Assembly (NCBI GenBank): GCA_904374795.1
Contig: CAJFEV010000007.1
Location: forward strand, 1-34,100
Length of the DNA stretch: 34,100 nucleotides
Source of the DNA: an uncultured Bacilli bacterium
GTDB lineage: Bacteria; Bacillota_I; Bacilli_A; RF39; UBA660
Reading direction: 5' to 3'
The notes below the pieces were generated by a model. That model ran no database searches. It saw nothing but the letters and a program-made list of their open reading frames with translations, and had not been told where the DNA came from. Below are positions 4,401 through 27,834 of this stretch, in pieces. The number at the start of each line of letters is the position of its first letter. Positions within the stretch are counted from its first letter, which is position 1. The position numbers and the translations under genes are program-made.

Positions 4401-4416
4401 TATTTCCCGGGAAATA
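4401..4416. promoter_or_regulatory. Noc-binding site (NBS), perfect TATTTCCCGGGAAATA
   Basis: Perfect 16-bp match to the Noc-binding sequence known from B. subtilis, inside a 20-bp palindrome (4399-4418). It lies in the metG 5' UTR between the T-box terminator and the ribosome site, so it is both a DNA site and transcribed leader. Confidence 0.85.
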
Positions 4417-14633: not shown

Positions 14634-14649
14634 AAATTTCCTCCATAAA

Positions 14650-14724
14650 AAAAGTGCACACAAATAGGGATTGACGTGGCTGCTATCTTCCGATCCTGAC
14701 CAGATTACAATATATTTGTTGCAC
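14650..14724 (-). ncRNA. ffs: Small bacterial SRP RNA (4.5S type)
   Basis: The minus strand holds the domain IV core GTCAGGATCGGAAGATAGCA followed by GCC, with the GGAA tetraloop and the symmetric internal loop bound by Ffh. The flanks pair as a long helix (GTGCAACAAATA with TATTTGTGTGCAC), followed by a T run at 14647-14653 that serves as terminator. At about 75 nt it is the short form without an Alu domain. Together with Ffh it targets membrane proteins. Its 3' T run lies just upstream of the tadA ribosome site, so tadA may be expressed by read-through. Confidence 0.93.
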
Positions 14725-14730
14725 AAGATA

Positions 14731-14771: not shown

Positions 14772-14787
14772 TGTTTCACGTGAAACA
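14772..14787. other. parS site 1 (perfect)
   Basis: TGTTTCACGTGAAACA at the centre of a 32-bp perfect palindrome (14764-14795). It has no DnaA-box-like companion and lies next to the SRP RNA promoter. Confidence 0.92.
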
Positions 14788-14842: not shown

Positions 14843-14858
14843 TGTTTCACGTGAAACA
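14843..14858. other. parS site 2 (perfect) with TTATAAACA at 14863-14871
   Basis: Perfect 16-mer in a 22-bp palindrome. The DnaA-box-like 9-mer follows after 4 bp. Confidence 0.92.
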
Positions 14859-14875
14859 TCACTTATAAACAAAAT

Positions 14876-14891
14876 TATTTCCCGGGAAATA
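14876..14891. promoter_or_regulatory. Noc-binding site (NBS) inside the parS cluster
   Basis: Perfect TATTTCCCGGGAAATA 17 bp after parS site 2. It differs from parS at the two positions per half-site that separate Noc from ParB binding. Confidence 0.87.
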
Positions 14892-14962
14892 ATTTAAAAT
14901 AAAAATGCAAAACTTATTAATTAACAGTATATAACATTTGTTATATTTTATAAAATATCCTA

Positions 14963-14978
14963 TGTTTCACGTGGAACA
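14963..14978. other. parS site 3 (one mismatch) with TTATTCACA at 14985-14993
   Basis: TGTTTCACGTGGAACA; the 9-mer follows after 6 bp and fits the DnaA-box consensus TTATNCACA. Confidence 0.88.
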
Positions 14979-15065
14979 TTTAGGTTATTCACACAAAATT
15001 CTTAAATAATAATAAAAATAGATCAATAATATATAATAAATAAATTATTAAGTTAAAACATACAA

Positions 15066-15081
15066 TGTTTCACGTGAAACG
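15066..15081. other. parS site 4 (one mismatch) with TTATCCACT at 15085-15093
   Basis: TGTTTCACGTGAAACG; the 9-mer follows after 3 bp. Confidence 0.86.
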
Positions 15082-15222
15082 TTGTTATCCACTAATACTT
15101 TTTACAAAGCATTTTTAAAAATTAAATAAACATAAATATATTCAAGTACATTTTTTTATTTTAAATATATAAAAAAATTAATATTTTATTATAATAACTG
15201 AAATAAAAAGAATATTATGTTA

Positions 15223-15238
15223 TGTTCCACGTGAAACA
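15223..15238. other. parS site 5 (one mismatch) with TTATTCACA at 15245-15253
   Basis: TGTTCCACGTGAAACA; the 9-mer follows after 6 bp. Confidence 0.88.
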
Positions 15239-15336
15239 TAGTAGTTATTCACAAAAAAGTATTATAAAAATAAGTAAAATAAATAATTTTATCAAAATTC
15301 ATTTTCTATTATTTTGAAATTTTAAAAAATTAATAA

Positions 15337-15352
15337 TGTTTCACGTGGAACA
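15337..15352. other. parS site 6 (one mismatch) with TTATAAACA at 15356-15364
   Basis: TGTTTCACGTGGAACA; the 9-mer follows after 3 bp. Confidence 0.88.
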
Positions 15353-15499
15353 TTGTTATAAACAAATATATTTCAAAGAAATAAAATTCAATATAGTTTA
15401 AAGAATAAACATAATTTAAAAATAATAATAGATATCTATGATTAATTATATTTTATCTTAAATAAAATATATAAAAACTATAATAAATTAATCTAATAT

Positions 15500-15515
15500 A
15501 GTTTCACGTGAAACA
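15500..15515. other. parS site 7 (one mismatch) with TTATAAACA at 15520-15528
   Basis: AGTTTCACGTGAAACA (first base changed); the 9-mer follows after 4 bp. Confidence 0.86.
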
Positions 15516-15541
15516 TTGGTTATAAACATTTCTATTTATTA

Positions 15542-15557
15542 TGTTTCACGTGAAACA
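15542..15557. other. parS site 8 (perfect), next to the gyrA terminator
   Basis: Perfect 16-mer. No DnaA-box-like companion; the gyrA terminator T run begins five bases away. Confidence 0.92.
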
Positions 15558-15561
15558 TAAT

Positions 15562-15584
15562 AAAAAAAGAATCATTAAGATTCT
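15562..15584 (-). terminator. gyrA terminator
   Basis: The stem AGAATC/GATTCT (15579-15584 with 15568-15573) encloses the gyrA stop codon in its loop and is followed on the minus strand by a T run. It shields the parS cluster from gyrase transcription. Confidence 0.8.
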
Positions 15585-18022
15585 GATTCTTCTTCTACTA
15601 AATTTTCTTTTTCTTCATGATCAACAATACTAATCGTCGCAACATTTTGATTTTCTTTTAAATGAATCAAACGAACACCTTGAGTTACTCGGCCTAAAGT
15701 TGAAACTTGATCCAATGGCAATCGTATCAACATTCCAGTATTGGTAATAATAACTACGTCATTATTTTCTCCAACTAACTTAAATGCAGCAATCGAGCCA
15801 TTTTTCTCAGTAATATTTAACGCCTTAACCCCTTTACTACCACGACTTGTTTGTCTGTATTCACGAACATACGTTTGCTTTCCGTATCCCTTTTCAGTAA
15901 CAATTAATATCTTGTCATCATCTGTTGCTATTTCAGCTCCAATACAAACATTACCATCTAAATTAATTCCTCGCACACCACTCGCAGTTCTTCCCATTAC
16001 ACGTATTTCATTTTCATTAAATTTAACCATTCTACCAGAGCTAGAACCTAATAAAATCATATCATTTCCATTAGTTTTTCGAACACTAATTAATTCATCA
16101 TTTTCACGTAAAGTAATACAAATTTTACCATTAGTTCTAATATTTTCAAATTCTTCTAAAGCTGTCTTTTTCACTATTCCCTTACGAGTTGCAAATAGTA
16201 AGAACTTAGCTTCATCATCCTTCGTTATTTTAATCATAGAATTAATAGATTCATCTTTATCGATTTGTAATAAGTTGATAACTGGAATTCCCTTAGATTG
16301 ACGACTGAATTCTGGTATTTCATAACCTTTCAATCGATACACTTTACCTTTATTTGTAAAGAACAATACATAATCATGAGTGGATAAGTTGAGTAAATGT
16401 TCTACAAAATCCTCTTCATTTGTAGCCATTCCTTTAACTCCTACACCACCCCTATTCTGTGATTTAAAAGTATCTGTAGTTGTTCTCTTAATATATCCCT
16501 TGTTTGTTAAAGCAATCATAATATTTTCCTCAGGAATTAAAGACTCATCCTCAATATACTCAATTGCTGTCATATCAATATTTGTACGACGTTCATCTGC
16601 ATATTTTTCTTTTATTTCTAACAATTCCTCTCGAATAATAGCTAAAACCTTTTCATCACTAGCCAAAATTGCTTTATATTCATCTATTTTCTTTAATAAT
16701 TCGGCTAATTCTGCTTCAATCTTTTCTCGCTCTAAACCTGTTAAACGGCGTAATCTCATCTCTAAAATAGCTTCAGCTTGAATTTCATCTAAACCAAACC
16801 TATTAATTAATTTTTCTTTTGCTTCTTCATCAGTTGAAGATTCTCTAATTGTCTTTATTACCTCATCTAAATGATCCAAAGCAATTTTTATACCTTCTAA
16901 AATATGCACACGAGCCTCAGCCTTTTTTAAATCAAATCGAGTTCGTCGAATGATAATTTCACGTTGATAATCAATATACTTAGCTATAATATCTTTTAAA
17001 GGCAACACAACAGGTGATTTTTGATCTAACATTAAGAAATTTATTCCATATGTTGTCTGTAATTGAGTATGTTTATACAAATTATTTAAAACAACATTTG
17101 CATTAGCATCTCTCTTTAAATAAATAACTACCCTAACTGGATTCTCCAAATTTGATTCTTCATGTAAATCACTAATACCATCCAAAATTTTATCTCGAAC
17201 TAATTCACCAATTCTTGATTGAAATTCTGCTTTATTTACTTGATAAGGAAGTTCAGTAACTATAATTCTAGACTTACCATTTATTTCTTCAATTTCTACC
17301 TTACCACGAATAGTAATAGTCCCTCTACCTGTTTCATATGCTTTTTTTATTCCACTATTTCCTAAAATAGTAGCACCTGTTGGAAAATCTGGACCTTTAA
17401 TATATTGCATTAAGCCATCGGTATCTATATCTGGATTATCAATATAAGCAACACAGCCATCAATAACTTCTCCTAAATTATGCGGAGGAATATTCGTAGC
17501 CATACCAACAGCAATACCCATTGTTCCATTTACCAAAATATTTGGAAATCTACTTGGAAGGATTTCTGGCTCCTTTTCAGTTTCATCAAAGTTTGGTGCA
17601 AAATCAACAGTTTCCTTATTAATATCCCTAACCATTTCCAAAGATAATTTTGAAAGTCTAGCCTCAGTATAACGCATTGCTGCTGCACCATCACCATCTA
17701 AATTTCCAAAGTTTCCATGGCCATCAACAAGCATATGCCTAAAACTAAATGGTTGAGCCATACGAACCATTGCATCATATATAGAGGAATCTCCATGAGG
17801 ATGATATTTACCCATAACATCTCCGACAATACGTGCACTTTTACGGTGAGGCTTATCAGGTGTATAACCCGATTCATACATAGAATATAAAATACGACGA
17901 TGAACAGGTTTTAAACCGTCTCTAAGATCAGGAAGAGCACGCGCCATAATAACACTCATAGAATAACGAATAAAAGAATTTTCTACTTCATTAACAACAT
18001 TATTTTCTATAATTTTATCCAT
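15575..18022 (-). CDS. gyrA: DNA gyrase subunit A
   Basis: 815 aa. The breakage-reunion domain has catalytic Tyr118 in [13 protein letters not shown]. The quinolone-determining region reads [10 protein letters not shown] with Ser79 and Asp83, the positions and residues of sensitive enzymes. The C-terminal beta-pinwheel carries a GyrA-box-like QNRGGVG (after FKS), which argues for gyrase rather than ParC. With GyrB it introduces negative supercoils. It lies 13 bp after gyrB; a GAGGTG site precedes the ATG. Its terminator overlaps the stop codon. Confidence 0.97.
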
Positions 18023-22844: not shown

Positions 22845-22856
22845 TTTTCTTCCCTC

Positions 22857-22993
22857 TTTCTTATTTTATATTTATATATTCATATTATTAATGGTGTGGA
22901 TAATGTGCATAACTCTTAAATTCATTATAAAGATTGAAGAATTTGTCGAATTTTCATGTGCATACTTATTCACATCAATAAAATTTATCCACA
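22857..22993. other. oriC sub-region between dnaA and dnaN: DnaA boxes and AT-rich unwinding candidate
   Basis: TTATCCACA at 22985-22993 and TTATTCACA at 22966-22974 on the plus strand; TTATCCACA (22895-22903) and TTATGCACA (22904-22912) directly in tandem on the minus strand; GTATGCACA at 22957-22965 on the minus strand. The tandem pair abuts a roughly 35-bp nearly pure A/T tract (22857-22892), a candidate duplex unwinding element. In B. subtilis unwinding occurs in this same gap. Confidence 0.8.
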
Positions 22994-24382: not shown

Positions 24383-24454
24383 GAAACCACCCCGCTTTAA
24401 CATTTGTCAACAATATTCTACACTTTTTTTTTTCAATTTAAAAGACTAAAATGT

Positions 24455-24483
24455 ATACTAACACACTATTCACAACTTATCAA
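24455..24483 (-). promoter_or_regulatory. dnaA promoter overlapped by DnaA boxes
   Basis: TTGATA (24478-24483), a 17-bp spacer and TAGTAT (24455-24460) on the minus strand. Box TTATCAACA (24477-24485) covers the -35, and CTATTCACA (24466-24474) lies in the spacer. Confidence 0.6.
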
Positions 24484-24676
24484 CAAAATAAAGTTCGATA
24501 GATACAGAAAAAAATACACTTATCCACATTATCAACATATTCAAAAAATTTTAATTGTGCATTAGTGGATAATGTGAAAATAAATTATCCACATGATGTG
24601 AATATGTGTATAAGTAGAGAAAATGATCAATAAATAAAGGAAAAAATAAAAAGTACTATGTGCATAATTGTTCACA
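24466..24676. other. oriC sub-region upstream of dnaA: DnaA-box cluster
   Basis: Plus-strand boxes: CTATTCACA 24466, TTATCAACA 24477, TTATCCACA 24520, TTATCAACA 24529 (directly adjoining the last), TTATCCACA 24585, TTGTTCACA 24668. Minus-strand boxes: TAATGCACA 24556-24564, TTATCCACT 24564-24572, ATATTCACA 24597-24605, TTATACACA 24605-24613, TTATGCACA 24659-24667. Gene directions diverge here (dnaA left, rpmH right). The 380-bp gap between dnaA and rpmH holds nothing else but the two promoters. Confidence 0.88.
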
Positions 24677-24700
24677 ATGACTAGGAAAATACAGTAATTG

Positions 24701-24730
24701 TTGACTTTTATTAGATTTTAATATTATAAT
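24701..24730 (+). promoter_or_regulatory. rpmH promoter
   Basis: TTGACT (24701-24706), an 18-bp spacer and TATAAT (24725-24730), followed by AGGAGGG just before the rpmH ATG. Confidence 0.8.
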
Positions 24731-24762
24731 AAGGGAGCTTTAGGAAAAAGGAGGGAAGAACT

Positions 24763-26949: not shown

Positions 26950-27834
26950 ATGATGGAAGAAAAAATTATAAAATTAATTATGGATAGTATATCAAACGGT
27001 CAGTTTTCTGAAAAAGAATTTATTAATAAATTAGTTGAAATAGAAGTTACATATTATAATTTGAATAAATATATAAGAAATATTAAATTTGAACAAAAGC
27101 CAAATGTCACTGGAAAAACAGATATGGCATATGATTTGCAAACTAAAAGTATAATTATTTATTTAGTAAATTATCATAAAATGCTTATAGAAAAGCTAAA
27201 AAATATCTCTCTTATTAATAAAAGTATGTTTCCTTTTGTCATGCCAATAGCCACTTTCAAATCAGTATCTCATGAAATAAATCATGCAAATCAAATCCAA
27301 CTTCTTTCAAAAAATCGAAAAAGTATTGAAGCTGAAGTACTTAAAATTGCTTTTTTACCATATATAATGACGTCGAAAGAAATACTATTCAAAGTATTAT
27401 TTAATAAATCAGCATCTCCAGATAGAATCAAAGAAACTGAAGAAATATATCAAAAAAGTTACATTATCAATCCTTTTGAAAGAATGGCAGATATTAAATC
27501 ATTAGAAATCACCAAAAATATCTTATCTTTAATGAAAGGTTGTTTATCTTTACAAGAATATTATGAAGTAGAAATGTTATCTAAAGAATTAAGCGCATAT
27601 GTCAATTTTCCTGAACAATTTCCATTATTAACTTATATCCAGCAATGTCATCTAGAAGAGAAGATAAAAGACTCATCATTATTTGATTCCTTTCCAACAA
27701 TACTTACACAACAATGTTTAGACTTACCTTTGAAAGAAAGAATTAATTTTGGTTTTCCAATAACAAAAGATGAACAAGAAAATCTAAAAATAAGATTAGA
27801 TGTTCAGACAAGAAGATTATTTCCCGGGAAATAA
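26950..27834 (+). CDS. Unknown protein with a zinc-metalloprotease-like HEINH motif
   Basis: 294 aa, soluble: no signal peptide or membrane segment seen. The family was not recognised. Residues 104-116 read KSVSHEINHANQI, an HExxH motif (His108, Glu109, His112). Further on NPFERMADIKSLE offers Glu177 as a possible third zinc ligand, as in gluzincins. The rest is helical and Lys/Ile-rich. It has its own promoter and sits between jag and mnmE, a junction that usually holds no gene. Its last codons (LFPGK and stop) are made by a perfect Noc-binding site. Peptidase activity is inference from the motif only. Confidence 0.7.
   Translation: MMEEKIIKLIMDSISNGQFSEKEFINKLVEIEVTYYNLNKYIRNIKFEQKPNVTGKTDMAYDLQTKSIIIYLVNYHKMLIEKLKNISLINKSMFPFVMPIATFKSVSHEINHANQIQLLSKNRKSIEAEVLKIAFLPYIMTSKEILFKVLFNKSASPDRIKETEEIYQKSYIINPFERMADIKSLEITKNILSLMKGCLSLQEYYEVEMLSKELSAYVNFPEQFPLLTYIQQCHLEEKIKDSSLFDSFPTILTQQCLDLPLKERINFGFPITKDEQENLKIRLDVQTRRLFPGK
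27818..27833. promoter_or_regulatory. Noc-binding site (NBS) over the stop codon before mnmE
   Basis: Perfect TATTTCCCGGGAAATA covering the last codons and stop of the HEINH gene, seven bases before the mnmE -35. Confidence 0.87.

Follow-up and report, generated by a model that had tools for sequence, protein, structure and literature searches.

In an uncultured gut member of the Bacilli, each of the six inner sites of the chromosomal parS cluster is followed closely by a DnaA-box-like 9-mer, and this pairing is conserved in other genomes of the genus. The same genome encodes DnaA, Soj, ParB and a Noc-like protein. These features argue that the cluster is probably a composite ParB/DnaA centromere, which would couple initiator activity to ParB loading.

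Gene order, origin and parS cluster

The DNA analysed, a 34,100-nucleotide part of contig C7 (the window), belongs to a 1.3 Mb assembly of 96 contigs. The minus-strand order around the parS cluster is dnaX, tadA, the small SRP RNA, the cluster, gyrA, gyrB, recF, dnaN and dnaA, with genes on the plus strand from rpmH onward, beyond dnaA (Table 1); recF, dnaN and rpmH are presumed identities, assigned by eye. Both GC skew and gene direction flip at dnaA-rpmH, which places oriC there, 7-10 kb from the parS cluster. The cluster was also considered as a second oriC, a reading rejected because both switches occur at dnaA-rpmH instead. Elsewhere in the window, two ORFs at 124-1400 look like fragments of a single broken transposase (judged by eye to be zinc-ribbon and ISL3-like), and a 294 aa protein with a HEINH motif, possibly a metallopeptidase, is encoded at 26950-27834 between jag-like and mnmE genes, where it is unexpected.

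All eight parS sites lie in one long, AT-rich gap of 0.8 kb between tadA/SRP RNA and gyrA and, as 16-bp TGTTNCACGTGAAACA-type palindromes at this distance from oriC, have the character of a chromosomal centromere. The rest of the assembly holds no further parS, the single extra match having 2 mismatches. The original prediction, that parS 2-7 are each followed by a 9-mer on the same side and on the plus strand at gaps of 4, 6, 3, 6, 3 and 4 bp, was confirmed position by position. It had also proposed shuffling the spacers as a check against chance: with parS fixed and the spacers dinucleotide-shuffled, right-side, same-strand TTATN(A/C)AC within 6 bp occurred on average 0.036 times and at most twice in 20,000 shuffles, against the 6 pairs observed, and the pairing is thus not due to chance. 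The box after parS 7 stands 13 bp before parS 8, so that parS 8 is near a box after all.

Table 1. Coordinates of the parS cluster, its borders and the origin region in the window
Feature	Position	Strand	Remarks
Small SRP RNA	14645..14730	-	RF00169; left border of cluster
parS 1	14772..14787		TGTTTCACGTGAAACA; without box
parS 2	14843..14858
DnaA-box-like 9-mer	14863..14871	+	TTATAAACA; gap 4 after parS 2
Noc-binding-site palindrome	14876..14891		TATTTCCCGGGAAATA; within cluster
parS 3	14963..14978		TGTTTCACGTGGAACA; one mismatch
DnaA-box-like 9-mer	14985..14993	+	TTATTCACA; gap 6 after parS 3
parS 4	15066..15081
DnaA-box-like 9-mer	15085..15093	+	TTATCCACT; gap 3 after parS 4
parS 5	15223..15238
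DnaA-box-like 9-mer	15245..15253	+	TTATTCACA; gap 6 after parS 5
parS 6	15337..15352
DnaA-box-like 9-mer	15356..15364	+	TTATAAACA; gap 3 after parS 6
parS 7	15500..15515
DnaA-box-like 9-mer	15520..15528	+	TTATAAACA; gap 4 after parS 7
parS 8	15542..15557		Without box to its right
gyrA	15575..18022	-	Right border of cluster; 3' end towards cluster
DnaA-box group, dnaA-dnaN intergenic	22845..22993		Part of oriC
dnaA	22994..24403	-	Standard DnaA; domain IV (DNA-binding) conserved
DnaA-box group, rpmH-dnaA intergenic	24404..24760		Part of oriC; marks the flip in GC skew and gene direction

Proteins and Noc sites

The DnaA of this genome is ordinary, and its domain IV resembles the B. subtilis one (GGRDHSTVIHA here, GGRDHTTVIHA there). 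Adjacent genes on contig C15 (C15:17527) encode a Soj-ParB system made up of a 272 aa Soj and a 296 aa ParB, the latter of the Spo0J type with B. subtilis Spo0J as its best PDB match (6sdk, E 2e-61). A Noc-like ParB paralogue, which scores under the NCBIfam noc cut-off and has Noc as its best PDB match, is encoded just beyond the window (genome G000, C7:35307), about 11 kb from dnaA on the far side from the cluster. All five perfect Noc-binding palindromes in the genome are on the origin contig, four of them at 4401, 9402, 12410 and 27818 and the fifth between parS 2 and parS 3. A Noc palindrome is found inside the parS cluster in 9 genomes of the genus, and by sequence match the cluster may gather ParB, DnaA and Noc sites together. 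In a genome of another genus (G056, loci L105 and L225), a Noc palindrome, a DnaA-like box and parS directly abut in about four repeats, forming a three-part site.

Conservation of the pairing within the genus

The genus sample comprised 37 genomes including that of the window, and parS was found in 32 of them; the other five (G005, G016, G017, G034 and G035) are without an exact parS, and they were excluded as a test of loss, their assemblies either lacking the gap beside gyrA or interrupting it where contigs end. Every cluster that could be placed sits in the tadA-gyrA gap. A box of the form (S)TTATN(C/A)AC(A/T) within 7 bp accompanies 129 of the 208 parS sites, with a strong dependence on rank: 115 of 144 inner sites carry one, vs only 9 of the 32 first sites and 5 of the 32 at the far end, so the absence of the 9-mer from the outer two parS sites, noted in the window, holds across the genus. 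Same-direction pairs within 7 bp number 92 on the right and 37 on the left, against about 1 expected in each; another count gave 91 and 36, with 2 and 0 boxes in the opposite direction. In all, 129 boxes beside parS point one way and 2 the other. Gaps on the right are 2-6 bp (one of 7) and never 0-1, and those on the left are mostly 0-3.

An unbiased count of all words of the form XXXXnnXX gave GTTAnnCA and TTATnnAC as the most enriched beside parS. The spacers change in length and sequence between members of the genus, in which DnaA identities between box-carrying species fall to about 76%, and the box-parS pairs stay. The original prediction would have failed had the 9-mer not been conserved beside parS in relatives, and such a lack of conservation did not turn up. 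In two relatives the clusters are enlarged, to 11 parS in G010 (L044) and 16 in G023 (L055), apparently by tandem duplication of units with at least two parS.

The boxes might instead serve near oriC as a reservoir that titrates DnaA, and lie beside parS simply because intergenic space is free there. Six boxes in a long, AT-rich gap at this distance from oriC could bind some DnaA, and a one-direction excess of TTATnnAC also exists away from parS in the clusters (66 '>' vs 13 '<'). A reservoir, however, would not require most inner parS sites to have a box within 7 bp, and the boxes are spread unevenly, bunching beside parS (131 TTATnnAC observed vs 13 expected, counted as words in the genus clusters), which makes titration quite unlikely as the explanation.

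Side and strand across the family

The parS cluster is far more widespread than the boxes. It was found in 30 of 30 sampled genomes from 28 other genera of the family, adjoining gyrA or tadA/dnaX in nearly all loci inspected, and in most of these genera the cluster is kept and the boxes are absent, so the pairing is not essential to a working centromere. Within the family, 52 of 385 genomes, from 17 of 117 genera, carry pairs with the ACA end towards parS, and a reversed control pattern gave 0 matches. These ACA-facing pairs divide 65 to 40 between the two strands (the set was selected by that pattern and its geometry counts are biased accordingly), so that strand is lineage-specific. A strict pattern of the window's type gave 0 matches in 341 genomes from other families of the class. 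In a scan of 84,980 species, contigs with several modules were almost only in bins of uncultured Bacilli or Ca. Ventrenecus, together with one two-hit Kapaibacterium contig, and the remaining single matches were at about chance level, by a rough estimate of that level.

Fixed side and orientation had been predicted as a defining property of the module, which the wider comparison does not support: other species of the window's genus carry the box on the opposite side of parS, and other genera use the other strand. A universal chromosome polarity was likewise rejected, for the genus is almost entirely one way (129 vs 2) yet other genera are on the opposite strand. On the DnaA tree, the arrangements (either side, either strand) require about 10 switches; that of the window corresponds to a single, well-supported clade of 17 species, whose sister group within the genus has the box on the other side. 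Because the geometry is lineage-specific, the fixed orientation in the window is partly inheritance and no universal rule. In one genome (G137, locus L261) all box-parS pairs are strand-flipped relative to congeners, as if the cluster had been inverted whole.

Inheritance might be taken further, with an ancestral parS-box unit duplicated and passed on without function, which would explain the shared orientation. The tandem duplications in G010 and G023 and the clade-specific geometry agree with this, but the box was kept while spacers diverged in length and sequence over DnaA identities down to about 76%, and the pairing was kept or regained through some 10 changes of arrangement, making a functionless origin highly improbable.

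Resemblance of the box to DnaA sites of oriC

The module boxes fit the TTATNCACA-type profile of the organism's own oriC, with position 5 less C-rich. At position 6, C or A is found in 99% of module boxes (n=129) and in 95% of oriC boxes from the same genomes (n=391), whereas T is found there in 25% of TTATnnAC words elsewhere in the cluster; position 9 of the module boxes is A or T in 96%. They differ from oriC boxes in the base at -1, which is G or C in 99% vs 58%. This preference is present on whichever side of parS the box stands, and therefore belongs to the reader of the box and not to the parS neighbourhood. The full TTATCCACA is rarer among module boxes than oriC boxes, and they often read TTATAAACA or TTATTAACA, both outside the classical DnaA consensus. 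The predicted likeness to DnaA boxes thus stands as to profile, with the qualification that the module boxes are weaker by sequence than those of oriC and carry G/C at -1; each is best regarded as a putative DnaA site of reduced strength, and such sub-consensus boxes would be the opposite of a good sink for titration. Module boxes covary only weakly with the oriC boxes of their genomes: taking each genome as an independent point, a Spearman correlation of 0.48 looked significant before correction but fell to 0.33 (p=0.05) with GC content removed.

The 9-mer could alternatively be an accessory element read by ParB or another segregation factor and not a DnaA box. Plasmid parS of the P1 type, with its A and B boxes, is the two-motif case for comparison, and the tight spacing to parS and the G/C at -1, which oriC boxes do not demand, are in line with such an element. 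It is nevertheless rather unlikely, since one ParB dimer could hardly read a box that turns either its TTAT or its ACA end to parS, on either strand, since the ParB is an ordinary Spo0J-type protein, and since the position-wise profile tracks the DnaA boxes of oriC. Among titration, a ParB specificity element and coupling of DnaA to ParB, coupling appears to fit these sequences best.

A putative composite centromere

We infer that DnaA reads the box and acts on ParB/Soj. Under coupling, the centromere region of the chromosome would be a cluster of composite sites 7-10 kb from oriC, at each of which ParB of the Soj-ParB system would load at parS and DnaA would take the adjacent box. As module boxes are weaker than the TTATCCACA boxes of oriC, their occupancy would be set by the level or ATP state of DnaA. 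Earlier studies describe ParB as loading at parS and then sliding off as a CTP clamp (PMC7053999, PMC8299390), and as bypassing roadblocks (PMC9242446). DnaA bound 0-7 bp from parS might contact or recruit ParB, compete with its loading, or block one exit and so make release one-sided. Since the side of the box varies between clades, the shared function cannot lie in releasing ParB in one fixed direction, and local contact or competition is more likely. Centromere activity would thus track initiator activity and, with regulation of DnaA by Soj, respond to the initiator level.

It is possible, if doubtful, that these clusters constitute a composite centromere of a separate class. Each site for loading ParB would be paired with a DnaA site of its own, through which the initiator would gate or polarise ParB clamp loading at every parS, and the architecture would have arisen, or been rearranged, on several occasions within one family of Bacilli.

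Comparison with known systems

The original prediction knew of no described element of this form, which reviews covering Caulobacter crescentus correct: DnaA is reported to bind boxes in the parS region there (Mera et al. 2014, via PMC6399470, PMC4468827), and this binding is required for the DnaA-dependent movement of the unreplicated centromere (PMC6399470, PMC4468827). Caulobacter likewise has an initiator site inside the centromere, with DnaA boxes in a parS region that lies about 8 kb away from the origin, the counterpart here being identified by sequence match; DnaA binding and a segregation phenotype were shown there, whereas the Bacilli have one box per inner parS, repeated, seen by comparative genomics. 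On chromosome II of V. cholerae, RctB sites lie in the rctA/parS2 locus (PMC6399470, PMC4468827), so that initiator and ParB sites also adjoin and both proteins influence each other, but the initiator is RctB, not DnaA, and parS2 is within a regulatory locus with a titration role. In Deinococcus radiodurans cisII/cisMP, DnaA-box-like motifs are similarly interleaved with ParB-binding repeats (PMC7671480), but these elements are of iteron type, belong to secondary replicons, double as origins and have no canonical parS. B. subtilis shares the Soj-Spo0J protein set and parS near oriC, but its control is exerted via the Soj protein, and box-parS pairing is not described for it in the literature examined; ParA (Soj) control of DnaA is independent of parS position there (PMC7614844), which counts against coupling at parS.

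Given the precedents in Caulobacter, V. cholerae and Deinococcus, the element in the Bacilli is a variant. DnaA boxes inside a centromere were known already; what is new is the repeated, one-to-one pairing, in Bacilli, with evolutionary depth. To our knowledge, direct action of DnaA at a centromere has been described chiefly for the single Caulobacter locus. The present clusters bear on how the start of replication is coupled to origin segregation in bacteria: one genome shows the same idea in six copies, the genus has retained it, and the lineages lacking boxes serve as natural controls, so that a role of DnaA at parS can be tested comparatively and in simple in vitro experiments. The arrangement suggests that, in these Bacilli, replication start and chromosome separation may be wired together at each site.
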